Below, one piece after another: positions 3,033 through 45,997 of a stretch of 64,000 bases of DNA. The notes under the pieces are model-generated. The model was not told where the DNA came from. It searched no databases and was given only the letters and a program-made list of their open reading frames with translations. Every line of letters begins with the position of its first letter. Within the stretch, counting starts at the first letter, position 1. The DNA comes from a virus. A program made the position numbers and the translations under genes. The DNA lies in the IMG/VR virus record IMGVR_UViG_3300035670_011014, positions 1-64,000 of that record. The stretch is one strand, 5' to 3'.

Positions 3033-4243
3033 TTCAAAAGTGATTTATAAAGTTCAGCTCGGTTTTTTGTAACAACTCTCAAATCGTATGTATCTTTAAC
3101 AGTTTCGTACAACTTCTGTCCTAAGTCATATGCCATGTTTGGATTATCACTCAATAGTTTGATGTTCTTGTACCAATCGTTGTAGTTTTTGAACTCACTA
3201 ACTAATAGTGCGTTACCATCGGTAAACTTCTTGTTTACATATGCACTTTTCAAATCAACTGTATAAGGTCCGAAGTCTGATGCGATGATTGCCTTTTTAT
3301 AAAATCCTGCTTCGATTACTTTGAGTTGTGATTTCACTTTATTGAATATGTGGTTTTTAATTGGAGCCAAGGATACATCAAATTTTGAATAGTTTTTTGC
3401 GTAAGAGGTAACAGGACGAGTCCATACTCTCTGATAATATTCATCAGGAAAATTGACACTGTTGTCTTCTTTGAATTTCATAAGAAACTCTTTGTAATCT
3501 GCAGACATCATGGAGTGATTAGCCGTTACAATTTGTTCATATCGATACCATACAGTCTCCAAAGGTTTGATAGGGCGGCTTTTTTGTTCACCTGTCTGTG
3601 CGTTAATTTCTGTCATGGAACCTCTTGTGTCAAATCCACAAAGATATAGTTGTATTTTATCTTGATAAGGTTTAAGTCTTTCAAAGGTGTTACCAAACAA
3701 TTCTAAATCATGTAAGTGTGAGGAACCACCTAACCAACCAAATCTTAATTTGTCTGAAGGTATAGTTGGTTCTTTGAACTGACTTTCTTCAGGATTAATC
3801 GAGTTCGGTATGACAAATACGTTTTTGTTCAGTTTCGAGATTTCGTGGGCAAACAAAGAAGTTGTGGTTGTAACATACTTCGCAACCTTGATGTTGTTTT
3901 TAATTTTTTCAAAAAGATTGTTTTGGATAACCAACTGATGTGCGGGGTGTTCCCTCGTTGGTAACCAATAGTCGTCGATATCTAAAATTGTGATTATCCC
4001 TGCGTTATTGAGTTTTTGAATGACGGCATTGGACTTTTCGTAGTCGGGATTTAAAGTTCTGTGAAAATGAACAATCTGATATTTTTTCCAATAGTTCATA
4101 TCATCCATTTTCGGATCGTAGTCAATGTCCACGTGAAATTCATCAGGATATAAATTTTGTAAAAAAATGTGTGGTTCGACAGATCGAAATTTACCGACAC
4201 CTGTCCTGTCGGATGGAAGTACTAAGACATGAATTTTTTCCAT
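3029..4243 (-). CDS. Glycosyltransferase, GT-B fold (GT4-like)
   Basis: A 404-residue protein with two Rossmann-like halves. The N-terminal half contains YQIVHFHRTL and ITILDIDDYWLP, common in phage and bacterial GT-B enzymes that act on surface polymers. The C-terminal half has RFGWLGGSSHLHDLE and, at about 305-328, the nucleotide-sugar region KVIEAGFYKKAIIASDFG, where the conserved glutamate of GT4 proteins would fall. It is followed by an ATGA overlap with the exonuclease gene and preceded by a 49-base gap. Together with two further glycosyltransferases downstream it suggests that the phage glycosylates a virion component or modifies host glycans; the acceptor is not known. Confidence 0.75.
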   Translation of the reverse strand: MEKIHVLVLPSDRTGVGKFRSVEPHIFLQNLYPDEFHVDIDYDPKMDDMNYWKKYQIVHFHRTLNPDYEKSNAVIQKLNNAGIITILDIDDYWLPTREHPAHQLVIQNNLFEKIKNNIKVAKYVTTTTSLFAHEISKLNKNVFVIPNSINPEESQFKEPTIPSDKLRFGWLGGSSHLHDLELFGNTFERLKPYQDKIQLYLCGFDTRGSMTEINAQTGEQKSRPIKPLETVWYRYEQIVTANHSMMSADYKEFLMKFKEDNSVNFPDEYYQRVWTRPVTSYAKNYSKFDVSLAPIKNHIFNKVKSQLKVIEAGFYKKAIIASDFGPYTVDLKSAYVNKKFTDGNALLVSEFKNYNDWYKNIKLLSDNPNMAYDLGQKLYETVKDTYDLRVVTKNRAELYKSLLK

Positions 4244-4292
4244 TAAAGCGAATTTGTAAAATTATAACAAATTCAATGGAACAAAAAAAGAC

Positions 4293-4856
4293 TTATTGGA
4301 TTTTTTTGATAGAGGTTACCTTACCTTCAAAAATGTGTTTCCCAACTTTCAATTCTAATCTATCGTTAGTTTTAGTTGTTGATTCTGTGATGACACCTAA
4401 ACTCTTGAGTTCTTCCTTAATAACGTCTCTTACGGTATCTCTAACAGTGTCTCTAACCATGTTTCTTAATTCATTCATGTTGAAACTTGGTGATTCAGAA
4501 TTCTTAGGTGTTGATGTAGTCCGTTTGTTATCATTCATCAACCTTGAGGCTTTTTCCACTAAATCGTCCGATAACGTGGGTCCATTCAATGATGGTTGTA
4601 CAATTGGATTCTCTATCATTAATTTTTTGATTTCGTCGGGTAGTTTAGAATTCATCACACGACTGGAGTCATATGGTTGTGCCACATTCAAAGTTTGTTG
4701 TATGGAAGGTTGTTGTGGTTGTTCCATCATAGGTTGTGATTCCTCATAAGATGTTTGTGTGAACGACGACTCTCCAGCTGATTGTCCTCTTGGAATTCTG
4801 TCGTGGGCTTCCATGACTTTTTTTGCCATCACTAATTTTTGCATCAAATCACTCAT
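4293..4856 (-). CDS. Hypothetical protein with Gln/Pro-rich linker and coiled-coil segment
   Basis: Not recognised. The 187 residues divide into a short helical start (1-20), a low-complexity Ser/Gln/Pro-rich stretch (24-62), a helical part, then a strongly amphipathic repeat in which R-D-T-V recurs with a four-residue period (about 134-153), and a short basic C-terminus (LELKVGKHIFEGKVTSIKK) that looks like a small beta hairpin. This architecture, flexible linker plus coiled coil, is common in small phage structural or scaffold-associated proteins, but no function can be assigned. Four bases separate it from the upstream WYL-domain gene. Confidence 0.7.
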   Translation of the reverse strand: MSDLMQKLVMAKKVMEAHDRIPRGQSAGESSFTQTSYEESQPMMEQPQQPSIQQTLNVAQPYDSSRVMNSKLPDEIKKLMIENPIVQPSLNGPTLSDDLVEKASRLMNDNKRTTSTPKNSESPSFNMNELRNMVRDTVRDTVRDVIKEELKSLGVITESTTKTNDRLELKVGKHIFEGKVTSIKKIQ

Positions 4857-4860
4857 CTTA

Positions 4861-5241
4861 TTAAAATTTTGCGTTCAGTATTACTCGTGTCATACTTTTA
4901 TCACCATTTGGGTTATATCCAGGTCGTGGTGTATTAAATTTCTCTAACGTAGGTTTAAAAGTAAAGATTTTATCCACTCTGAATAATCTCCAACCAGGAA
5001 GGGGTTGTTCTCCTATACGAGCAGTATGTGAAGCACCTTCTTCGTCCCACGCCCTTAAAACAACATTTCCTCTTTTACTATACCCAACACAAACAGGTTC
5101 GATAGTTCGCAATCCTTTACCACCGGGTTCATCACCATCATAATAGATAGTAACAACGGTTTTTTGTTTAATTGCGTCTTGAATGTCTTTCAAAGATGCA
5201 ATTTCAGTTATCAAAGATTTTAAACTACCAACTAGTCTCAC
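4861..5241 (-). CDS. WYL-domain-like protein
   Basis: A 126-residue protein. After a short helical start (MRLVGSLKSLITEIASL) the region 17-100 matches the WYL pattern: IQDAIKQKTVVTIYYDGD, then RTIEPVCVGYSKRGNVVLRAW and finally GWRLFRVDKI. WYL domains are Sm-like beta barrels that bind nucleic acid or nucleotide ligands and usually sit in bacterial transcription regulators behind a helix-turn-helix; here the domain stands alone with no DNA-binding helix-turn-helix. It shares ATGA-type overlap with the upstream 99-residue gene. It may regulate a phage or host process, or be a virion-borne effector; either is inference. Confidence 0.68.
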   Translation of the reverse strand: MRLVGSLKSLITEIASLKDIQDAIKQKTVVTIYYDGDEPGGKGLRTIEPVCVGYSKRGNVVLRAWDEEGASHTARIGEQPLPGWRLFRVDKIFTFKPTLEKFNTPRPGYNPNGDKSMTRVILNAKF

Positions 5242-6776: not shown

Positions 6777-9700
6777 ATGGCGTCTCAGAATATAAATAAT
6801 TATTACTTCAATCGTTTCGATTTAAGAAATACATTTTACTCGTACAACGATATTTTCTTGGTTTCAGATGAAAAAGATTACGATACTGAGGTAGTTTTTT
6901 CTTCTGAAGTAATAGCCTACAACGATGGTGACAGGTTACCTATTTATTTAGATTTTAACTCTACAGGTTCATCGCAACAATTAGAAATTCAATATGGAGA
7001 TTTCAATACGGGTGACACTGTAGTATCACTGAATTACTACAATCCTTTGAATTTGGATTTGACTTGTTTGAGTGCATTCACAGGTACTTGTGACGTTGGG
7101 TTAGTAGCAACAGATAACGGATTATACACCAAAATGACGGGTGAAACTTTGTTTTACACCATGGGTATAAGAGACGATTATAAGTTCCACCCATATTACT
7201 ACGACAGAAGATTTAAAATGCATCCAATAACAGGATACACTGAAAGTCCTAACGTTCGTTTTTCAGGAAATACCGACAGAACCTTATACAATATTGTTTC
7301 AGTGACAGGAACGACTGAAGGGGTTTATCGTGAATTGTTTGGTGGTTTTTACCAAGGATTTTATAAACTATTTGGATATGATTATGAAGTTTTCCCCGAA
7401 CGAGTAAATAAAGGTTGGACTGTGGAGATGTTGTTGAAACCCAGAATCGCAGGGTTATATCCACCCGTTTCAGGTGAGACTACGTTGAATTCTGTCTACC
7501 CTAATAATTCCAACATATTTTTTTATTTTGGTACAAGGGCAGAAGACAAATATTATCATTATGCCTCGGGAACGCCTCAAACAGATTCGGGATACACAAG
7601 GGTAACTGAGCAATTGGGGTGTATAAAGACATGTGGATGTTCAGATACCGCAACGACAACTTCAGATTGTTATCAAGTTTATCCTCAATCTGCCTATACT
7701 GTAACACATTATGGTAGTTGTTGTGATTGTCCAACGGAAGAACCTGTACCACCAAAAGATGCTAAAATAGATGTTTTATCAAACGCATTAGCTTTAAGGT
7801 TTTCTGGCGATCCGTGTAATCCTGTTTTGGGAGTTCGTTATATAAAATACACAGGAGATTGTGTAACGACTGGTTTTTGTGAAACTAGTGGTTTGACTTA
7901 CAGTACTGGATACACAATTGATGAGGTATACTCAAGTAAAGGTATATATGATGATTGTGATTTTCCACCAGGTGAATGTGCAGATAGATGGGTGCAGATA
8001 GATGTCGTATTTGACAGATATATCACAATTGAAGGTTGTGATTTACTTAATTTTGGGGGATTGGGTGATTTACGTAAGATGACATATACGTCGTCTACAT
8101 TTAACGCATCCGTAAATTTAATAAGTCCTCCTCAGACACATCCTGGTGTTCCACATGAAAAAGAAATAGAAGTCATAGAATTTACACGTAGATGGGAAGA
8201 AGATTTGGATTATCGACTTGGAAGGTTAATGTTCTATGTCAATGGTTATCTTTTCATGATAATCGAAAACTTTGAGGAGATTATACCAAGAGAACTAAAC
8301 ACCTTAAAAGAAAAACAAGTCGGTGTACCATTTAATATATCTTGGGGTGGTGGATCTTTGGGATTGAGAGAAAGTTTGATTTTTTCCGGTTGTTCACAAT
8401 TGGAAGGTCCGTATATTCAGGATCCGGAATTAATGCCAAACCAAACATTGTCAGGGACAAGTCTTTCTGGTTTATCCACAGACATTTTAATTGAACCTAA
8501 TTTTGCGGGTACATTTGATGGTGCTATTTCACAGTTCAGAATGTATGTCGAACCTTTATCTGCACCACAAATTCAACATAATTTTAGACTACTAAAAAAT
8601 GATTTCAACTTATTTGATTTTTGGTGTCTCAATTGTACGGATGTAGTTGATCCTTGTGATTTCGAATTCCAATTTATTGAATCATCACCCACACCAACAT
8701 CCAGTGTTACACCAACAATCACTCCTACACAAACCGAAACTCCAACAAATACTCCTACACCTACAAACACCGAAACTCCGACTAACACTCCAACTGTTAC
8801 AAACACTCCTACACAAACCGAAACTCCAACAAATACTCCTACGCCTACAAATACTGAAACACCAACTAATACTCCAACACCCACTACCACAGAAACTCCA
8901 ACAAACACTCCAACACAAACTAACACAGAGACTCCGACGAATACTCCAACTCAAACACCTACACCTGCAAATACTGAAACTCCAACTCAAACACCAACAC
9001 CCACAAATACTGAAACTCCAACTCAAACACCAACACCTACAAATACTGAAACTCCAACTCAAACACCAACACCCACTACCACAGAAACTCCAACAAACAC
9101 TCCAACACAAACTAACACAGAGACTCCGACGAATACTCCAACTCAAACTCCTACACCAACAAATACTGAAACTCCAACTCAAACACCAACACCCACTACC
9201 ACAGAAACTCCAACAAACACTCCAACACAAACTAACACAGAGACTCCAACAAATACTCCTACACCAACAAATACTGAAACTCCAACAAATACTCCTACAC
9301 CTACAAATACACCAACACTAACTAATACACCAACTAATACAGAGACTCCGACTAATACCCCAACAAATACACACACACCAACCCAAACTCAAACACCTAC
9401 AAATACCATAACCCCCACTAATACTCTGACACAGACACCAACTCCGTCTTCTACTTTGAGTAATGAGGGGTACTTACTTCAGGAAAATTTTTCTATGATA
9501 CTTCAAGAAGGTGAGGAATCAAACGGAATTTTAATTGAACCAATTCAATCGAGTCCCACACCAACAAACACTTCAACTCCAACTCCAACACCAAGTGCAA
9601 CACCTTTACCAACAATTGAGTTATTCACAACTGTAGGTACAACTTCTTGGGTAGCTCCTGCAGGTGTAACCTCAGTCGAATATCTTGTTGTTGCAGGTGG

Positions 9701-10283
9701 AGGTGGTGGTGGAAATGGATATGATAATGCGGGTGGTGGAGGTGGTGGTGCTGGTATGGTACTCACAGGAACCCTATCTGTAACACCAGGAAACTCTTAC
9801 ACTGTAACTGTCGGTGATGGGGGTGTTGGAGGTGCAGATGCAAGAGCGAATAATGCAGGTTCACCAGGCGTAAATAGTGTATTTAGTTCCATTACATCTC
9901 TTGGTGGAGGGAATGGATTGGGCTCGAGAACTGGTGGTGTTGCAGGACTTGCACAGGTTGGTGATACAACATCACCAACTGGTGGTAGTGGTTCTGGTGG
10001 TGGTTTCGGAGGTAAAGGTGGTGGAGGTGCATCTGGTAATGGAAGTAACAACTCAGGTGCAACTGGTGGTGCTGGTGGTGCGGGTGTGAGTAATTCTATA
10101 ACAGGTTCTGCCGTCACTTACGGTGCGGGTGGTGCGGGTGCCAATGCAGGTACGCAAAATCCTGGAGTTAACGGAACATCAAACACAGGTAATGGTGGTA
10201 GAGCGGGAGGCGCAACATCAGTAAACTCAACGGGTGGTGGTAAAGGAGGTTCAGGTATTGTAGTATTGAAATACTTCATATAA
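6777..10283 (+). CDS. Large tail-fibre/adhesin-like protein: LamG-like head, Pro/Thr repeat linker, glycine-rich tip
   Basis: An 1168-residue extracellular or virion protein. Residues 1-630 are a beta-rich domain ending in a concanavalin A/LamG-like part ([14 protein letters not shown], then [20 protein letters not shown]), with a cysteine-rich insert around 285-320. Residues about 637-895 are an almost pure Pro/Thr/Asn/Glu repeat (units such as [15 protein letters not shown]), probably an extended, rigid or glycosylatable linker. A second short Pro/Thr stretch (924-945) precedes a glycine-rich C-terminal domain (951-1168) with runs of five to six glycines. Glycine-rich tips are known in T-even-like adhesins that bind receptors. 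A host-recognition role is inferred. It opens the plus-strand block and is followed by two genes of similar style. Confidence 0.75.
8690..9460 (+). repeat. Pro/Thr-coding low-complexity tandem repeat region, first adhesin gene
   Basis: Imperfect tandem units of about 18-36 bases (built from CCAACA, ACACCT, AATACTGAAACT and similar pieces), rich in A and C and poor in G on the plus strand. The repeats keep both antisense and shifted frames open, which creates spurious ORFs. Confidence 0.95.
9039..9247 (+). repeat. Exact direct repeat of about 89 bases inside the Pro/Thr region
   Basis: Bases 9039-9127 recur exactly at 9159-9247, a spacing of 120 bases (40 codons). A third, partial copy begins at 8880. 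Such identity at the DNA level suggests recent duplication, and recombination between copies would change the linker length in frame. Confidence 0.9.
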
Positions 10284-10287
10284 ACAA

Positions 10288-10296
10288 ATATTTATA
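10288..10296 (+). promoter_or_regulatory. Candidate phage promoter motif
   Basis: ATATTTATA in the 20-base gap before the gene at 10304; only seven bases separate the motif from the ATG, so a transcript starting here would be almost leaderless. Confidence 0.4.
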
Positions 10297-10303
10297 AAAT
10301 AAA

Positions 10304-10939
10304 ATGCCAAATTTACCCATATCCCAATTACCTGAGTTATTATCATCGGCAATAACAGCGAACGCTGAATTTGCAGTTGCACAAGGAGGTACAACTTACA
10401 GAGTAAAACAAGGTTCTCTGAATCCATATTCTCAAGTCTACGGACTTTTTTCTCAAACTGGTAACAGTGTTACGGTAAGTGGAACAACCATCGAAACTAC
10501 TATAATTGGTGAAGGTGTTGGAACCTTGAGCGTACCTGCCAATGCATTTTCTGTCGGAGACAGTTTTCAATTAACCATGGGGGGTGTTATGGATAACACC
10601 AATGACACAGTCATATTGAAACTAAAAAGTGGTTCTGTAATTTTAGGTCAAAGTTCAACATTCAATCCGGCGGCCGATGGTGATAATTGGTTTATGTCGG
10701 TGTATTTTACAGTCAGGAGTGTTGGTGGAGCCGGTACCGCGTCTCTATCGACACATGGAAATTTTCAAGTGGTTAAATCATCAAATGGGAGTGTTTTTGG
10801 GGAAGCCTTTCAAACCTTGAACAACACAACTTTTGACACTACAAGTACTAACACTTTAGATATTACAGTTCAGTTTAGTAGTAATGATCCCCTCAATTAC
10901 ATATACAGTGACTTATTTGTATTGAACAAAATTTTCTAA
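10304..10939 (+). CDS. Hypothetical virion-associated protein, beta-rich, 211 aa
   Basis: Not recognised precisely. The N-terminus (MPNLPISQLPELLSSAITANAEFAVAQGGTTYRV) is of the kind often seen at the start of phage fibre or head-fibre proteins, where a short Pro-Ile-Ser-Gln-Leu-Pro segment precedes a beta-structured body. The remainder alternates Thr, Ser, Val and Gly, suggesting a beta-sandwich of the tip or trimeric-fibre type (residues 45-211). No cysteine and no membrane segment are present. It sits between the two large adhesin genes and is probably a fibre accessory or a short fibre; this is inference from context. Confidence 0.65.
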   Translation: MPNLPISQLPELLSSAITANAEFAVAQGGTTYRVKQGSLNPYSQVYGLFSQTGNSVTVSGTTIETTIIGEGVGTLSVPANAFSVGDSFQLTMGGVMDNTNDTVILKLKSGSVILGQSSTFNPAADGDNWFMSVYFTVRSVGGAGTASLSTHGNFQVVKSSNGSVFGEAFQTLNNTTFDTTSTNTLDITVQFSSNDPLNYIYSDLFVLNKIF

Positions 10940-10942
10940 TTG

Positions 10943-13900
10943 ATGAACAATTACGGTGTAATATTAACAAGTGAAAACTTTTCGGGTAAAACCGCGTTAA
11001 TTACATTTGTTGAAGAGGGTACTGAGTTAGTAACCAATTTAGGTTATCAAGAAATACCTTATACCTATTTCCCTGATGACGGGACACCTCAAGGAGTTTA
11101 TTATTTGTTTTTGACAGGAACCGGGGAAACATGTATAATAAATGTAACAGAACCCAATCCTACTCCTACACCAACTAACACGGTAACACCAACAACCACA
11201 ACAAGTCCAACTCCAACCCCAACAGTAACACCAACAGCAACAAATCTTTCGGTTGAAATTATTTTGACTGGTGAATATTCGGAGGGTTCTATTAATGCCG
11301 CTTACATTGCAACATCAAACAATCCTTTGGATGTTGATTTGAAACTTTCGTTTACTGATAATTTGGGAACCACCACAGGCTCTTCAATTACAATAAATGG
11401 AGAAGTAACAATTTTACAAGGACAAAATACAGGATATAGTTATTACACTATTGGTACTGATTATAGCGTTTTGAATGATACTAACACGTTTTCGTCCATA
11501 ACATCCGATATTACGGGTAGTTCAATTTATACGTTTTTTGTTCGAACTGATTCGGAATTTAACGTCACCCCAACACCTACACAGACACCTACTCAGACAC
11601 AAACCCCAACTAATACTGAAACACCAACCAATACTCCAACACCCACAAATACTGAAACTCAAACCCAAACACCCACACCAACTAATACTGAAACCCCAAC
11701 CAATACTCCAACACCCACAAACACTGAAACTCCAACGCCTACAAATACTGAAACCCCAACCAATACTCCAACACCCACAAATACTGAAACTCCAACTCAA
11801 ACTCCAACACCCACAAATACTGAAACTCCAACCAATACACCAACGCCTACAAATACTGAAACTCCAACGAATACCCCAACACAGACTGAAACCTCGACAA
11901 ATACTCCAACACCAACAAATACTCAAACACCAACAAAAACACCCACACCTACCATAACACCAACATCTACAACACCTTCGGAGTCAAGAATTGTTTATTG
12001 GGATTTTTCAAACCCTATTTCATATTCAGGAACAACAACTGTATTTGATTTAGAAAATAATAGTAATGGTACTATTATGAATTCCCCTTTAAGTGGTAGT
12101 ACGGGATGTGGTTCTTACGTAGATTTCAATGGTAGTTCACAGTATATCTATAGCAACACCAATTTAAGTCCATTATTTTCTGGTGTTTCCCCAAACAAGT
12201 CTGAAGTGACTTCAATATTTATGTGGATTTATCCTAAAGGTGATGGGGTTATACTTTCTGAAGTCGGCGCTGCAAATTCATTGCTTGGATGGCACACATC
12301 AATAATTGAAATGGTTTCAGGAACCTTTAAGTTTGGTTTTTGGAATGGAACCGCAAATAGTGTTGTTACCTCATCTATACCAACACCATTTAATAATTGG
12401 TATTATGTTGGTATGACGTATAACGGTTCAACTTTAACCGCATATATTGATGGGGTAAGTGCTGGTAATATAACCTTCAATAGATTGGCTCCTTACAATA
12501 GCGGATCGGGACTATTTTATTTACTAGCCCATCAAGATACAACAAATATGGGTGACGGAGGATTTGGTGATTACAGGGTTGGTAGTTTCGAAATTTACAC
12601 AACATCTCTTAATTCGACACAAATAAATAACAACTATACAAGTTCTTCGGTAAATTATATTTGTCCACCCCCCACTCCTACACAAACACCTACACAAACC
12701 TCAACCCCAACAGTAACTCCAACTAATACACCTACCCAAACCTCAACCAATACACCGACACCTACCAATACTGAAACACCAACAAATACACCAACCCCAT
12801 CGTCAACACCAAGTTTGGTTACATCCGGATTGATTATACAACTTGATGCATATGAGAACTCAAGTTATCCTGGAACAGGTACAACAGTTTATGATATAAC
12901 AGGGGGGTATAATCACACATTAATCGGTGCAACTTACACAGTTCTTAACGGTATAAAATGTTTTGATTGTACGACAGGGAATAATAGAGTTAATTACAAC
13001 GCAACAGGACCTACATTACCAACATCAGGTTATACATACATTACTTGGGCAAAATTAGAACCTGGTAATCCATCATCATTTAGAACATTACTTTATACTA
13101 ACTCACCTAAATATACACCAATAACAATCCCTAACGGAACAAATACATTAGGATATTGGGATAGTGCGTTTAGAAGTTCAGGGTATGATTTATCAGGTGA
13201 AACAAGTGTTTGGGTTCAATATGCGGTAGTAGGGACAAACTCGTCTCAAACATTCTACATAAATGGTTCACAGGTGGGAAGTACAATCAATGAGGGTGCT
13301 GGTGGAACTACACATTGGGGATGGGGTAATAATGATATTGTTCCTCAGCCTTGGGGACATGTTGCCAACATGTATTTCTACAATAGACAATTGTCGCTTT
13401 CTGAAATCACACAACAATATAATTTCTTGGCACCAAGATTTGTTGAACCAACACCCACCCCTACATCAACATCAACACCTACGGTTACTCCAACAAATAC
13501 AATAACACCAACTAATACTATTACACCTACACCATCACCCACACCTAATATTGTAACATCAAACCTACAACTACAATTATTACCAAGTAGTTATGTTGGT
13601 TCAGGAACTGTTTGGGATACAACGGTTGGGACTACTGATGCAACATTATCAGGAAGTCCAACTTATGATGTGTTAAGTGGATTTACATTCAATGGAACAT
13701 CATCGTATGGTAGAATCCCAAGTGTTAATGATGTTACAAACTTTACAAATACTCAACAATATACTATTGAGATTTGGTTTAATCCGGCTAATGGGCAACC
13801 AAACGCAGGTGAAGCGGAACTGTTAGAAAAATGGAATCTAAATAACGAATCAAGATATCCTTACACAATTAGATTTAATGAAGGCGCAAGTAGCATGGTT

Positions 13901-14239
13901 GTTGCCGCCTATGATGGAAGTAATTTTCCTTCGGTTAGTATAGCCGGATTCCCTGTGAATACTTGGAGACAATTAGTTGCTGTCTTTGATTTTGGCGTTG
14001 GTAAAACACTTACAGTTTATAGAAATGGTGTTTCCGCGGGAAGTGCAAGTTTAGTAGGAGTTGGACAGGTAAGTAACACGAGCCCTGTAGGTATTGCGGG
14101 TAGAGTTGCATCAGGAACGGGAGCATTACAAGTTCCGTTTAAGGGGACTGTAGGAATCATAAGAATGTATAATACATCATTGACGGCATCACAAGTGTTA
14201 CAAAACTTTGATGCTGATAAATCAATGTTCGGATTATAA
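10943..14239 (+). CDS. Large adhesin-like protein with three LamG/concanavalin-like domains and Pro/Thr linkers
   Basis: About 1098 residues. I place the start at the ATG at 10943; a TTG one codon earlier (10940) is also in frame. A short N-terminal domain (1-75) is followed by Pro/Thr stretch 1, an Ig- or Calx-beta-like domain (about 105-210), a long Pro/Thr repeat (212-345), LamG-like domain 1 (349-565), a short Pro/Thr linker, LamG-like domain 2 (628-830), a linker and LamG-like domain 3 (870-1098). Each LamG unit shows the pattern of a buried tryptophan, an xWYxVGxTxxG- or TWRQLVAVF-like strand, then a YxNGxxxG turn. Such domains bind glycans. It resembles a modular host-binding fibre paralogous to the gene at 6777. 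Confidence 0.75.
11566..11978 (+). repeat. Pro/Thr-coding low-complexity tandem repeat region, second adhesin gene
   Basis: The same type of A/C-rich repeat as at 8690-9460, with many shared units (for example AATACTGAAACTCCAAC), so the two genes carry long stretches of near-identical DNA in direct orientation. Confidence 0.93.
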
Positions 14240-17935: not shown

Positions 17936-19048
17936 TTATATAACATCAAATGGATTTGGTAAAGCACGATATTGTAGTAATTTGTTTAGACTTTCCGCTT
18001 GGTTTGCCTTTACCTCCATCATCTTGTCGGGACGTAGTCTTTCGAGTCTCCCCATTAGTTCTTCCATTAACTTAGATTTTTCATCCTTAGCTTCTGTCAA
18101 CAACGAATCATATTCTAAAGTTAATTCTGAATCAGGGGTTTTAAGATTTCCCCCATATTTTCCTCTAACCCTACCAAGTGTTTCTTTAACGTAGGCGATA
18201 AACCACTTACGAACCCAAGCCTTTGCGGGTTGGTTTAGTTGTTGCCAACTTAGAACCTCTACAGGAATATCGGATGGTAAACGAACAACATCAGGGTTTT
18301 TGGCTAAACAATCATCCCTATCGTATGTGTCATAATACCAATACCAAACTCTACCTCCGTGGAAAGACTGACTACCAAAATCAAATCTTCCTCCTGGTAC
18401 GTTCATTAAGTGAATTGCTTTTTTACCCTCGGGTAATGCTGTGACTCTGTAAGTTAAGTCTGCGCCAACAATTCTTCTTTTTATATTGATGTCTGACATT
18501 CTAAGTAGTACATCAAAGGCTGGTGTGATGAAATAACTTCCCATTGAACCCATTTGTGAAAATCCCGCACCACCACCAAGTCCGATGCCACCGAATCCTC
18601 CGAATCCACCCATGAAAGGGTCGAAGTATGCTGCGTCCAATTCGGCACGTGAAAACCACAATAGTTCATTCAATTCCCTACCCGCTGGTATTTCATAGAT
18701 TTGGGTGTTGGCACTCAAATCAAAATAATCTTTTTTCAACACGTAATCACCACCCGCCTGTAGTCCTACTATTTTGGAGTATGCGTAAGTGTATTGAGTT
18801 TCCCAATCCAAACTTCTCGTTAGAAAAGCTTTCGTTACGGATTGTTCATCTAAGTCCAAGCCATATAGTGATGTCCATTGAGATTCAATCAACCAATCGT
18901 ATACATACTGACTATAATCTTCAATGGATAACTCCAATAAAGAATCCATCATTTCATCTTCAACTTCGACACCCCTAAGAGGTGCTCCAAGTAAGTGACG
19001 AACTTTAGTATAAAGTTTTGTTCTTTCGGGTCCTACAATGATTGACAT
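17936..19048 (-). CDS. Putative neck / head-tail connector protein
   Basis: A 370-residue protein. The N-terminus (LYTKVRHLLGAP, then VEDEMMDSLLELSIEDYSQYVYDWL) and the C-terminus (KAWVRKWFIAYVKETLGRVRGKYG and a run of charged helix, ELTLEYDSLLTEAKDEKSKLMEEL) are helical and resemble phage neck or adaptor proteins that sit under the portal and complete the head before tail joining. The middle holds a glycine-rich loop (GGFGGFGGIGLGGGAG, about 147-162) and beta strands, including WYWYYDTYDRDD. The gene stands downstream of the SOD fusion and has a candidate promoter at 19058-19070. The neck assignment rests on pattern resemblance and context, not on a clear T4 gp13/gp14 match. Confidence 0.55.
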   Translation of the reverse strand: MSIIVGPERTKLYTKVRHLLGAPLRGVEVEDEMMDSLLELSIEDYSQYVYDWLIESQWTSLYGLDLDEQSVTKAFLTRSLDWETQYTYAYSKIVGLQAGGDYVLKKDYFDLSANTQIYEIPAGRELNELLWFSRAELDAAYFDPFMGGFGGFGGIGLGGGAGFSQMGSMGSYFITPAFDVLLRMSDINIKRRIVGADLTYRVTALPEGKKAIHLMNVPGGRFDFGSQSFHGGRVWYWYYDTYDRDDCLAKNPDVVRLPSDIPVEVLSWQQLNQPAKAWVRKWFIAYVKETLGRVRGKYGGNLKTPDSELTLEYDSLLTEAKDEKSKLMEELMGRLERLRPDKMMEVKANQAESLNKLLQYRALPNPFDVI

Positions 19049-19057
19049 GAACTTTTT

Positions 19058-19070
19058 TATAAATAAATAT
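19058..19070 (-). promoter_or_regulatory. Candidate phage promoter motif, neck gene
   Basis: On the minus strand ATATTTATTTATA, ending nine bases before the ATG at 19048; two overlapping copies of the TATTTAT core. Confidence 0.45.
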
Positions 19071-19081
19071 CAAACGATGAT

Positions 19082-20641
19082 TTATTTATTCAACCAATTT
19101 TCTTTAGGTATGTTATACTTACCATCTACAATTGAAACGTTTTCGTTTTTGAAAATGTAAGTGTCCCCTTTGGTTGATATAAAAACTAAGTATTTGATAA
19201 TAGAAGGTTGGTAGTTCTTAACTTGTCCTGTGTCGGATAAAACATACATATCCTCGGTTTCTTCCATAGAACCGAATGGTTTTATCTGTGCATATTCTTT
19301 ATTACCATCTTCGTATTGTATAACAGCATCTTTTCCTGCCAATGCATCGGTAGTTACTCCCAAACCTCCTTCTTTTGTCACTTTAGCGTTTTGGAAATAA
19401 CTTTTCATACTCTGTACTGCCCTGTCTTCTTGTTTGTCTCCATATTCATCATTTTTAGCGAGTGAACTCATAATTTTTTGGAACGTTCTTGAATTGGGTG
19501 AAAATATTCTATAGGCGAATTGATTCAAGTAACTACTCAACTTACTCATTTCTTCTATTTGTTTTTCGGGTGTTTGTCCCAAAAAACTTAGAGGATTTTG
19601 TCCATATTTTTTCAACACTTCATTAATATCCGTCACCAGTGTACAAAAATTTGTGTAATTTGTATTGAGTTTGTTGATTACACTTCTTCCTTTTTTCTCG
19701 TAGTCATAAACCCCTGAAAGTGTATTGGGCGCGTATTCGTTCCGTTGAAACCAATATTCATTAAAAACTTCTTCCAAAACACTATCGATTGTTTTACGAT
19801 ACATTTCTTTTATTTCTGGATTTCGATTAAAAATATCTTTGTAGTTTTTTATTTGAGTATTGTTACAACCTTTAATCTCACCAGCCTCACTTATAATTTG
19901 TCTTATAGTTTTCGATTCCTCAAGTTTGTTATTTGTCTTCAAGTTGTACAAATCATTCACAAAATCCCAATTTACAACACTCCAAAAGTTTTTGATGTAG
20001 TCATCTTTTTTGTTTCTGTACTTTAAGTAGTATGCGTGTTCCCACAAATCTAAACCCAACAAAGGGTATCCTCCGTTTTGGTAGGTATTCATTAGCGGAT
20101 TATCCTGATTACTTGTAGTAACAATCCTGAGATTACCTCTTTTTCCAATAATCAACCATACCCACCCAGAACCAAATTTACTTTGAGCTTCTTCTTCGAA
20201 TTTCTTTTTAAAATTATCTAAAGTTTGAAAATCTTTTTTTATTGCCGCTAAGATTTCTCCACCTGCTCGTTGTGGACGAGGGGACAACATTTTCCAAAAC
20301 ATCGCATGGTTAAATGCACCTCCCGCATTGTTTTTTATTAGTTTAGGGAACTTGGAAATACCTTTTACAATTTCTTCAAGTTCCATATCACCACCTTGTC
20401 TATTTTTCAGTGCTTTATTTAATTTGTCCAAGTAACCTTTGTAATGTTTATTGTAGTGAATATTCATTGTTTCGGGATCGATGAAACGTCTCAAGGCTGA
20501 ATAAGAGTATGGTAATTTTTCAATACCTATTTCTTTCATTTCTGATAAAATTTGTTGAGGAATTTTGTTTTCGAAAAGACTTTCTTGTGTGATTTCCTCT
20601 TCGAGTTCTGAAATTCTTTTTTTTATTTTCTTAAATGACAT
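19082..20641 (-). CDS. Mn-type superoxide dismutase fused to a nuclease-like (PD-(D/E)xK) C-terminal domain
   Basis: A 519-residue fusion. Residues about 42-232 are a complete Fe/Mn superoxide dismutase, which converts superoxide to O2 and H2O2. Metal ligands are H62 (in IHYNKHYKGY), H112 (NHAMFW), D198 and H202 (LDLWEHAYY); the second-shell tyrosine is Y70, and Q179 in SNQDNPL together with glycine in NNAGG marks the Mn rather than Fe type. A helical linker region (about 240-395) follows. The last 120 residues carry an acidic helix, then D438 and Q452-x-K454 spaced as in PD-(D/E)xK-type nuclease folds with a Q-x-K variant. The N-terminus is a charged helix. The gene lies between a SNF2 helicase and a neck gene. 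The SOD call is strong; the C-terminal nuclease-like call is tentative. Confidence 0.85.
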   Translation of the reverse strand: MSFKKIKKRISELEEEITQESLFENKIPQQILSEMKEIGIEKLPYSYSALRRFIDPETMNIHYNKHYKGYLDKLNKALKNRQGGDMELEEIVKGISKFPKLIKNNAGGAFNHAMFWKMLSPRPQRAGGEILAAIKKDFQTLDNFKKKFEEEAQSKFGSGWVWLIIGKRGNLRIVTTSNQDNPLMNTYQNGGYPLLGLDLWEHAYYLKYRNKKDDYIKNFWSVVNWDFVNDLYNLKTNNKLEESKTIRQIISEAGEIKGCNNTQIKNYKDIFNRNPEIKEMYRKTIDSVLEEVFNEYWFQRNEYAPNTLSGVYDYEKKGRSVINKLNTNYTNFCTLVTDINEVLKKYGQNPLSFLGQTPEKQIEEMSKLSSYLNQFAYRIFSPNSRTFQKIMSSLAKNDEYGDKQEDRAVQSMKSYFQNAKVTKEGGLGVTTDALAGKDAVIQYEDGNKEYAQIKPFGSMEETEDMYVLSDTGQVKNYQPSIIKYLVFISTKGDTYIFKNENVSIVDGKYNIPKENWLNK

Positions 20642-20682: not shown

Positions 20683-22446
20683 TTATTTTTTTCTTTGATT
20701 AATCATATTCAGGATTTCTTCTACAATATCACCCTTACCTTCATTGTCACCCATTACGGTTTCGAATACGTTTTTCTTGGATTTTAAAATGTCATATATA
20801 ATACCCTCAATTGTGTTTTCAAAAATCGGGTAGTACACCAAAACATTATTTTTTTGTCCGTATCGGTATGCTCTGTCCTCTGCTTGTGAATGATCGGATG
20901 GAACAAAAGATAAATCGTTCATTATTACCACTTCACCCGCAGTTAATGTAATACCAACTCCCGCCGCTTTTATGTTACCAACAAAAACTTTGACATTATC
21001 GTCTTCTTGAAATTTGTCTACCGAATATTGTCTTTCAGGTTTTCCCATTGATCCATCTAATTTGACTGCTTGTTTGCCAAAATGTTCTGCAATTTGATTT
21101 AGAGAATCTGTGAAGTTTGTAAAAATTATTACTTTTTTTCCTTGTTCTATAATGTTCTCCGCAAGTTCGCAAGTGTTTTTTACTTTAGATGATGCGATTT
21201 CTTGTCTGACTTTCATAAGTTTCGAAAACTGTAAAGTCAAAGAATTTGATTCTTCTTGTTTGTCGAACCAATCATAATATTCCCCCATCAACTCTTCATA
21301 GTTTTGGGATTTTAATCTAAGGTAGACAGGTGTTATGATTTTTTCAGGTAAATCCAATATGTCTTGTTTCAATCTCCTTAACACGTGTGTTTTGGTTCTG
21401 TCTCTTAATTCTTCTAAGTTAGAAGCTCCTGTGACATTCCAAATTCTTTTTTTACCTACCTTGAACTGATATCCCTCACAATATCTTCTGACGTACCCCA
21501 TCCAATTTGCGGCTACAGGTGAATCAACTAAATCAAGTAAATTGAAATAATTAATCGGACGAGATGTCATCGGAGTTCCTGTAAGTAACCAAAGTTTCCC
21601 CAACTTTTTGGTTATATCATTGATTAGCTTGGTTCGTTGGGCTTGTTTGTTTTGTATATAGTGAGCCTCATCAACAACAACAAGTTCAAAACCCGATTTA
21701 AGTATTATAGAATTATTTTTGTCTTTTTCATCGTGGAAATTTTTTATGATGTCGTAATTCATAATAACAAAATCTGAATCTTCCCATTTTTTTCCTTCAA
21801 TGATGGAAACACTTCTATCCGTATAATTTTCAATCTCTCGTTGCCAATTTATCTTCAAGGATGCAGGACAGATAATCAAAATCTTTTTTGCACCTGTTTC
21901 AAGAGCTGCAATAATAGTGGATGTTGTTTTACCCAATCCCATGTCATCTGCTAATATGTATTTGTCATTTCCTACCAACTTTTCTATTGCCTCTTTTTGA
22001 TGTGATAGAGGGGGACGATGTGAATACTTGGAGTAGTCAATTTCTACTTGACGTTCCTTGTTAATAATAATGGCAGACTTAGGCATCCAAAAATCCGACA
22101 TCGTATCCCCACTCAGTATCTTCCCATAGATATGGTATGACTTTTCTTGCTCACATAGTAGCTTTTCAATATAAATCTCTTTGGGTTCTTTTGTCAACAA
22201 TTTGTCTTCCATAATTTTCCTTGAAAAATACGGATCGAGTTGAACCCACTTTTTTGCTACTTTTGGTACTGTTTGGTGATGGTTTAAAATATAATCTGCT
22301 TGTGAGCGTGTTAGTTTGAAACCTCTTTGGTTTTCTGATTTTTTCTTTATAGACAATATATAGTTATTGAACCCTTGATACGATTCAAGGATTCTCATTG
22401 CCTTAACTTCAGGAATGTTTACCGATATTTCTGAATTTTCTTCCAT
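20683..22446 (-). CDS. SNF2-family DNA helicase/ATPase
   Basis: A 587-residue superfamily 2 ATPase. Motif I is ADDMGLGKTT (166-175), motif II is VVDEAH (257-262), motif III LLTGTPMTSRP (287-297), and motif VI lies in AEDRAYRYGQ near the C-terminus; motif V-like GVGITLTAG is also present. The glutamine-rich motif VI ending RxGQ is typical of SNF2/Rad54-type remodelling translocases rather than UvsW. In phages such proteins are thought to help recombination-dependent replication, displace bound proteins or assist repair. It is the first gene of the minus-strand block and is divergent from the gene at 22491 across a 44-base gap. Confidence 0.9.
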   Translation of the reverse strand: MEENSEISVNIPEVKAMRILESYQGFNNYILSIKKKSENQRGFKLTRSQADYILNHHQTVPKVAKKWVQLDPYFSRKIMEDKLLTKEPKEIYIEKLLCEQEKSYHIYGKILSGDTMSDFWMPKSAIIINKERQVEIDYSKYSHRPPLSHQKEAIEKLVGNDKYILADDMGLGKTTSTIIAALETGAKKILIICPASLKINWQREIENYTDRSVSIIEGKKWEDSDFVIMNYDIIKNFHDEKDKNNSIILKSGFELVVVDEAHYIQNKQAQRTKLINDITKKLGKLWLLTGTPMTSRPINYFNLLDLVDSPVAANWMGYVRRYCEGYQFKVGKKRIWNVTGASNLEELRDRTKTHVLRRLKQDILDLPEKIITPVYLRLKSQNYEELMGEYYDWFDKQEESNSLTLQFSKLMKVRQEIASSKVKNTCELAENIIEQGKKVIIFTNFTDSLNQIAEHFGKQAVKLDGSMGKPERQYSVDKFQEDDNVKVFVGNIKAAGVGITLTAGEVVIMNDLSFVPSDHSQAEDRAYRYGQKNNVLVYYPIFENTIEGIIYDILKSKKNVFETVMGDNEGKGDIVEEILNMINQRKK

Positions 22447-45373: not shown

Positions 45374-45997
45374 ATGGGAGTAGAGAAAAAAATATTGGAA
45401 GAATTGAATAGATACAATCAAATCAATTCATACATCACCGAACAAGCTGATCCTTTAGCAGATTTAGCTGGTGGTGCGGACGAAACACCAGCAACTAATG
45501 ATTTGCCGGACGCTGGAGCTGAAGAGGTTGCAGAACCTGTTGATGTTGCCAGTGATCCTGAAGTCGAAGTAATTGGTGATGAAGGTGGTACCGAAACTGA
45601 AAGTGAAACTGAAGAGTTGGATATCACTGATTTGGTAAACAAACAAAATGAAGTAGCAACTAAACAAGATGAATACATGAGTAACTTGTTTGGTAAACTG
45701 GAGGACTTAACAAATAAGTTGGGGGAAATGGACAAGATTTTCGATAAGATTAATTCTTTGGAGCAGAAGATTGAAAAATATAGAGAAAAAACTCCCGAAG
45801 AAAGATTACATTTGAGAAGTTTGGATTCATATCCTTATAATCAAAAACTCACAGACTTTTTTGTTGACAAACAACCCGAGATGGAAAAGTCAGGTAAACA
45901 TGAGTATGTTTTAACGGCAGATGAAGTGAAAAACTTTTCGGACAACTCAATAAGAGATACTTTCGGACCTATCCCTAAAAATAACCCAAGTTTCTAA
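45374..45997 (+). CDS. Acidic coiled-coil protein, 207 aa, probably virion or scaffold-associated
   Basis: Not recognised by family. The N-terminal helix (MGVEKKILEELNRYNQINSYITEQA) is followed by a very acidic, Ala/Glu/Asp-rich disordered stretch (about 25-85), then a clear coiled coil (ITDLVNKQNEVATKQDEYM and on to KINSLEQKIEKYREK, about 88-140) and a compact C-terminus (LHLRSLDSYPYNQKLTDFF). Such an architecture occurs in prohead core and scaffold proteins and in proteins packaged inside T4-like heads. A strong terminator follows. The call is from structure of the sequence only. Confidence 0.65.
   Translation: MGVEKKILEELNRYNQINSYITEQADPLADLAGGADETPATNDLPDAGAEEVAEPVDVASDPEVEVIGDEGGTETESETEELDITDLVNKQNEVATKQDEYMSNLFGKLEDLTNKLGEMDKIFDKINSLEQKIEKYREKTPEERLHLRSLDSYPYNQKLTDFFVDKQPEMEKSGKHEYVLTADEVKNFSDNSIRDTFGPIPKNNPSF

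Follow-up and report, generated by a model that had tools for sequence, protein, structure and literature searches.

Phage T4 packages enzymes in its head, among them Alt and the anti-restriction internal protein IPI. The T4 internal proteins and Alt carry short targeting leaders, are cleaved by the prohead protease gp21, whose cleavage motif is L/I-X-E (PMC9026906), and are ejected (PMC9026906, PMC3012670). A foreign nuclease can likewise be carried and delivered by T4 via the internal-protein route. To our knowledge, no antioxidant enzyme is known from a phage head, and no prohead-cleaved precursor is known to yield two enzymes. Superoxide dismutases (SODs) of freshwater phages have been reported as oxidative-stress genes acting for the host (PMC6802176), and no description of an SOD-nuclease fusion, or of SOD packaging, was found in the open-access literature. 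Here we analyse a gene from a large group of uncultured, T4-like phages from water which, by our estimate at slightly better than an even chance, encodes a late head-cargo precursor (leader, SOD and nuclease) that would be cut by the prohead protease and carried in the virion.

The window, meaning the whole 64,000-nucleotide stretch of DNA that was analysed, carries this gene between an SNF2-type helicase gene and a neck (head-tail adaptor Ad2) gene, all on one strand (Table 1). The open reading frame was found at the coordinates given by the first-pass annotation, on the minus strand, and the 'neck operon' in which it had been placed holds with a qualification: the gene shares its strand with the adjoining neck gene, but each of the two has a separate TATTTAT element upstream. 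The head-gene cluster is absent from the window contig (a 64.8 kb virus record), so the gp21 and gp23 evidence given below was drawn from relatives. The neck protein matched nothing in isolated phages, which leaves no cultured phage to serve as a model; the cultured phages nearest by gp23 were Microcystis phage Mel-JY01 and the Flavobacterium phages 'immuto', a kinship that is weak as host evidence. Elsewhere in the window, positions 6777-14239 encode two large fibre-like proteins with long repeats.

Table 1. Features of the SOD-nuclease locus, with positions counted from the first letter of the window.
Feature	Position	Strand	Evidence or remarks
SOD-nuclease precursor gene, 519 aa, ATG start	19082..20641	minus	ORF, Pfam, full-length homologues
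N-terminal leader helix, residues 1-34, putative capsid-targeting propeptide	20540..20641	minus	Alignment; kept in most standalone nuclease orthologues; low pLDDT at 19-45
(L/I)xE site 1, L-S-E34, candidate prohead-protease site	20540..20548	minus	E34 column 47/59
Mn-type Fe/Mn SOD domain, residues 41-230	19952..20521	minus	Pfam, PDB matches, ligands invariant 59/59
(L/I)xE site 2, L-E-E242, candidate	19916..19924	minus	53/59; context conservation 0.43
(L/I)xE site 3, I-S-E252, candidate	19886..19894	minus	57/59; context conservation 0.55; also in most standalone nucleases; low pLDDT at 240-254
Helical domain of nuclease module, residues 259-384	19490..19867	minus	AlphaFold2 model; no Pfam family
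PD-(D/E)xK nuclease-type domain, residues 385-519 (E405, D432, D438, Q452, K454)	19085..19489	minus	Invariant residues; Foldseek to I-Ssp6803I, Hjc
TATTTATA late-promoter-like element (putative), 22 nt upstream of the SOD-nuclease start codon	20656..20663	minus	
Neck protein, head-tail adaptor Ad2-like, conserved downstream neighbour	17936..19048	minus	PHROG 211, E 4e-9; synteny
Neck gene's own TATTTATA element	19058-19065		
SNF2/UvsW-type DNA helicase, conserved upstream neighbour, without TATTTAT element	20683..22446	minus	Family matches, synteny

The SOD domain matched Pfam Sod_Fe_N (PF00081, E 4.7e-21) and Sod_Fe_C (PF02777, E 6.7e-40) far past the cut-offs, with both families near full length (5-82 of 82 and 3-101 of 102 positions) and together covering residues 41-230. 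PDB matches to the same region were Mn and Mn/Fe SODs aligned end to end, the best being 5n56 (E 8e-58), as had been anticipated from the letters of the gene. The four metal ligands listed by the first-pass annotation (H62, H112, D198 and H202), together with the gateway tyrosine Y70 and the Mn-type glutamine Q179, are present and invariant in 59/59 non-redundant homologues. By sequence, this domain is a complete Mn-type SOD, for which activity and Mn binding are predicted.

The C-terminal half matched no Pfam or PHROG family. An AlphaFold2 model of residues 236-519, built with 30 aligned sequences (mean pLDDT 87, pTM 0.77), folds into two domains, the first helical and the second mixed alpha/beta. 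Searched with Foldseek against the PDB, the model matched the PD-(D/E)xK homing endonuclease I-Ssp6803I best (E 9.8e-4, probability 1.00) and the archaeal Holliday-junction resolvase Hjc with a probability of up to 0.99, the TM-scores of the module being moderate (0.44-0.51 by target length, over ~115-130 aligned columns). In the model, E405 lies in a long helix, D438 just ahead of a strand and Q452-x-K454 on the next strand, as the PD-(D/E)xK fold predicts. The nuclease-type fold suspected at first reading was thus recovered by AlphaFold2 and Foldseek, and the residues D438 and K454, on which that suspicion leaned, are invariant in 59/59 homologues, as are G401, E405, G428, D432, G436, Q452 and P455. 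Pairs of close relatives gave dN/dS values of ~0.03-0.06 for the nuclease and ~0.02-0.04 for the SOD; given these low values and the invariant residues in both, the two halves are kept by selection.

Compared with PDB sequence profiles, the module gave chance-level matches only, and no sequence-profile similarity to the Hjc or I-Ssp6803I families was detected in PDB sequences or Pfam. Since sequence profiles link it to no named family, membership of either is not claimed; as modelled, the module is a PD-(D/E)xK-fold protein with an intact motif rather than an Hjc or I-Ssp6803I family member, and DNA cleavage is predicted. A scan of bacterial and archaeal genomes returned no relative of the module, and the nuclease could thus be traced neither to a cellular origin nor to a host. 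The top PDB match could also be taken to mean that the nuclease is a homing endonuclease, or another selfish element, that captured an SOD domain. We regard this as extremely improbable and rejected the homing endonuclease reading because the locus is fixed: what was largely seen is a conserved single locus without mobility, with no intron or intein context in the phages examined and with strong purifying selection. Among BFVD models, that of A0A8D9CCA0 (1113 aa, uncultured marine phage) includes the same nuclease module (TM 0.76, 21% identity), possibly with other fused cargo; this protein was not recovered from the contigs.

Upstream elements hint at the expression class of the gene. In the window, 14 of the 41 genes have TATTTAT no more than 60 nt upstream (0.6 expected); nearly all of these are virion genes, and the spacing of TATTTAT(A) from these is 11-45 nt; the TATTTATA-type 8-mer occurs 16 times on both window strands together, compared with 6.1 expected. 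Among relatives, 110 of the 118 distinct regions upstream of the SOD-nuclease gene contain TATTTAT (93%), as do 101 of 104 for the neck gene (97%) and 86 of 87 for the sheath gene (99%), set against 7/117 (6%) for polB, 4/126 (3%) for the helicase and a background of 2.4%. Most relatives have the element ahead of gp20, gp21 and gp22 as well; gp23 has no TATTTAT within 60 nt upstream in these phages. TATTTAT(A) is the T4 late promoter core in reverse complement and is read here as a putative late-promoter-like element.

Phage-encoded Fe/Mn SODs had been described as rare at first pass, which holds for phage isolates but not for the present uncultured group, in which the gene is common and carried by related phages: one IMG/VR scan returned 183 relatives (80 kept), most of them matched across nearly the whole query. 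The fusion gene was absent from every cultured phage in the searched collection, from which many high SOD matches, in small or unannotated records resembling host DNA, were left out. In the first two locus sets, for which some contigs were fetched twice, 161 ORFs contained the nuclease module and 160 of them an SOD as well; the single exception is a split gene. In L146, SOD and nuclease lie in two overlapping ORFs (3317-3967 and 3948-4880), either because the gene is naturally split or through an error in sequencing.

Divergent members of the family, used as queries, brought up standalone nuclease modules of ~280-320 aa on phage contigs of up to 318 kb, where they occupy the same locus, between the helicase and neck genes. 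When an SOD was sought in 13 records, none was found in the 12 with a standalone nuclease, and the one match came from an SOD-fusion record. In most standalone forms the leader helix is retained and leads into an (L/I)xE motif at the E252 position, and L250 and L251 keep the first site too, as INEMKKIEIEKL, running directly into KSIISEG. The alignment of L251 with the SOD-containing L007 has a clean in-frame gap of ~609 bp that corresponds to removal of the SOD, and this gap is seen in contigs of several samples. A midpoint-rooted tree built on the nuclease module places the SOD-less forms at two separate points within the SOD-containing ones, a pattern for which two SOD losses would be the simplest reading. 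Some short-leader standalone nucleases (L274, L279 and L281-L283) have lost the LxE site, and cleavage is therefore not essential in these forms. On these comparisons the nuclease is the constant part of the protein, and the SOD a removable cassette.

This pattern bears on the possibility of an auxiliary metabolic gene, whose SOD would keep an oxidatively stressed host alive and whose nuclease would be incidental. Such a role has been proposed for freshwater phage SOD genes (PMC6802176), and other phage SODs are free-standing genes, yet the late-class element, the fixed position between helicase and neck genes, the near-constant fusion to a conserved nuclease and the twofold loss of the SOD with the nuclease kept all run counter to it, and we consider it quite improbable.

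A head-cargo precursor is the reading that best accounts for a leader, protease-type sites flanking the SOD and a late-type upstream element occurring together. The full-length model is poorly defined precisely at residues 19-45 and 240-254. Of 57 full leaders, 56 have an [LI]xE motif in the 16 aa directly preceding the SOD (shuffled linkers, mean 21.6, maximum 33) and an (L/I)xE motif follows the SOD in 59/59 sequences (mean 26.1, maximum 36), where the linker shuffles leave kinship among the sequences uncorrected and where LxE, as a short motif, is frequent by chance in charged linkers. As a control, other proteins of these phages were compared: the conserved LxE motifs of polB, the neck protein, the helicase and the sheath protein lie in contexts with a conservation of 0.74-0.93, and one small neighbour protein has a conserved LxE with a context of 0.58, whereas the contexts of sites 242 and 252 are poorly conserved (0.43 and 0.55).

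The protease itself, of the gp21 family (PF03420), was found in 6 relatives whose contigs extend to the head genes. Five gp23 homologues from relatives have QASHLINEA near residue 60 in common, placing their (L/I)xE motif near the cleavage position of T4 gp23, from which a propeptide of 65 residues is removed (PMC9026906). Of the attributes of packaged internal proteins, an N-terminal leader ending in (L/I)xE is present here as a motif alone, and a gp21-type protease with a processed-type gp23 is present in relatives. Other candidate head proteins of 293-1064 aa lie beside gp23 in L264, L265 and L266; these start MS(E/K)YILSEDLAVWFG and have an LSE motif at residues 6-8. In the window, a 207-aa protein encoded at 45374-45997 on the plus strand starts MGVEKKILEELNRYNQINSYITEQADP and has a leader with an I-T-E site; it is possibly a scaffold or packaged protein.

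In the proposed sequence of events, the leader helix would direct the precursor to the forming prohead, and a T4-type prohead protease (gp21 family) would cleave after the (L/I)xE motifs that flank the SOD. Cleavage would release the Mn-SOD and the PD-(D/E)xK nuclease, both remaining in the capsid beside the DNA, and the freed enzymes would probably enter the host together with it. The SOD could remove superoxide within the particle or on entry, with packaged DNA in sunlit water, metal cofactors and the entry phase as candidates for what it protects, and the nuclease may act on host or branched DNA. Packaging, cleavage and ejection, like the enzyme activities and substrates, are steps that we infer. 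Weighing against this reading are a leader longer than those of the T4 internal proteins, the short-leader standalone forms that have lost LxE, the chance frequency of so short a motif and the lack of TATTTAT ahead of gp23.

Several of the same observations could be accommodated by a two-domain enzyme that stays uncut, is produced late in infection and is left out of the particle. Its nuclease would process branched phage DNA ahead of packaging, trimming or resolving it in the manner of T4 endonuclease VII and perhaps with the adjoining UvsW-like helicase, and its SOD would guard that DNA or the metal centre. The nuclease fold is near that of the Holliday-junction resolvase Hjc, the helicase neighbour is conserved, the nuclease is the constant part, and a late-type element suits action at packaging time equally well; left unexplained are the conserved (L/I)xE motifs on either side of the SOD, in variable low-confidence linkers, and the retention of leader and LxE in most SOD-less orthologues. 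We hold such an enzyme to be rather unlikely and return to the head-cargo precursor, under which the gene product, instead of acting as a single bifunctional enzyme, is probably a precursor that can be cleaved into two separate ones. The guess of the first-pass annotation that the protein protects the virion or is ejected gains support from the late-type promoter-like elements and the flanking prohead-protease motifs, as read from sequence.

On balance, we see it as an even call whether the heads of a widespread T4-like lineage contain an active Mn-SOD together with a nuclease, both from one precursor cut by the prohead protease, with the antioxidant as a removable cargo cassette between protease sites. 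If this were true, superoxide would endanger these phages on entry or earlier, and they would meet it with a prepaid enzyme, while published phage SODs taken as auxiliary metabolic genes would need rereading. The natural SOD-less orthologues let the role of the SOD be tested by comparison, and the rule of a leader plus (L/I)xE offers a route to listing cargo proteins in uncultured T4-like phages.

Compared with E. coli SodA and the S. aureus Mn/Fe SOD 5n56, the phage domain is alike in its Pfam domains, four ligands, tyrosine gateway, Mn-type glutamine and whole-domain conservation, but shares one ORF with a leader ahead of it and a nuclease module behind it. The nuclease module resembles I-Ssp6803I and archaeal Hjc in its predicted fold and in the order of a helix acidic residue, D and then Q-x-K, and differs from them in lacking a sequence-profile match, in its extra N-terminal helical domain and in its phage late locus. 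The free-standing Fe/Mn SODs of PA5oct-like Pseudomonas jumbo phages and of Vibrio phage 2.275.O are likewise phage-encoded, but are ~180-190 aa long, ~25-28% identical, without a nuclease and in another gene context. Evidently of the same fusion family is A0A6J5L953 (BFVD; 501 aa), a 'superoxide dismutase' of an uncultured Caudovirales phage, whose model matches across the nuclease module (TM 0.82, 33% identity); its name covers the SOD only and leaves the nuclease half unnamed. With T4 IPI-III and Alt, to which no sequence relation is claimed, the precursor shares a leader ending in (L/I)xE, a late-type upstream element and, in relatives, a gp21-family protease. Its leader runs to ~34 aa, as against 10-19 residues in the capsid-targeting sequences of the T4 internal proteins, its virion location is putative, and its candidate sites flank a middle domain, such that each precursor would yield two enzymes.
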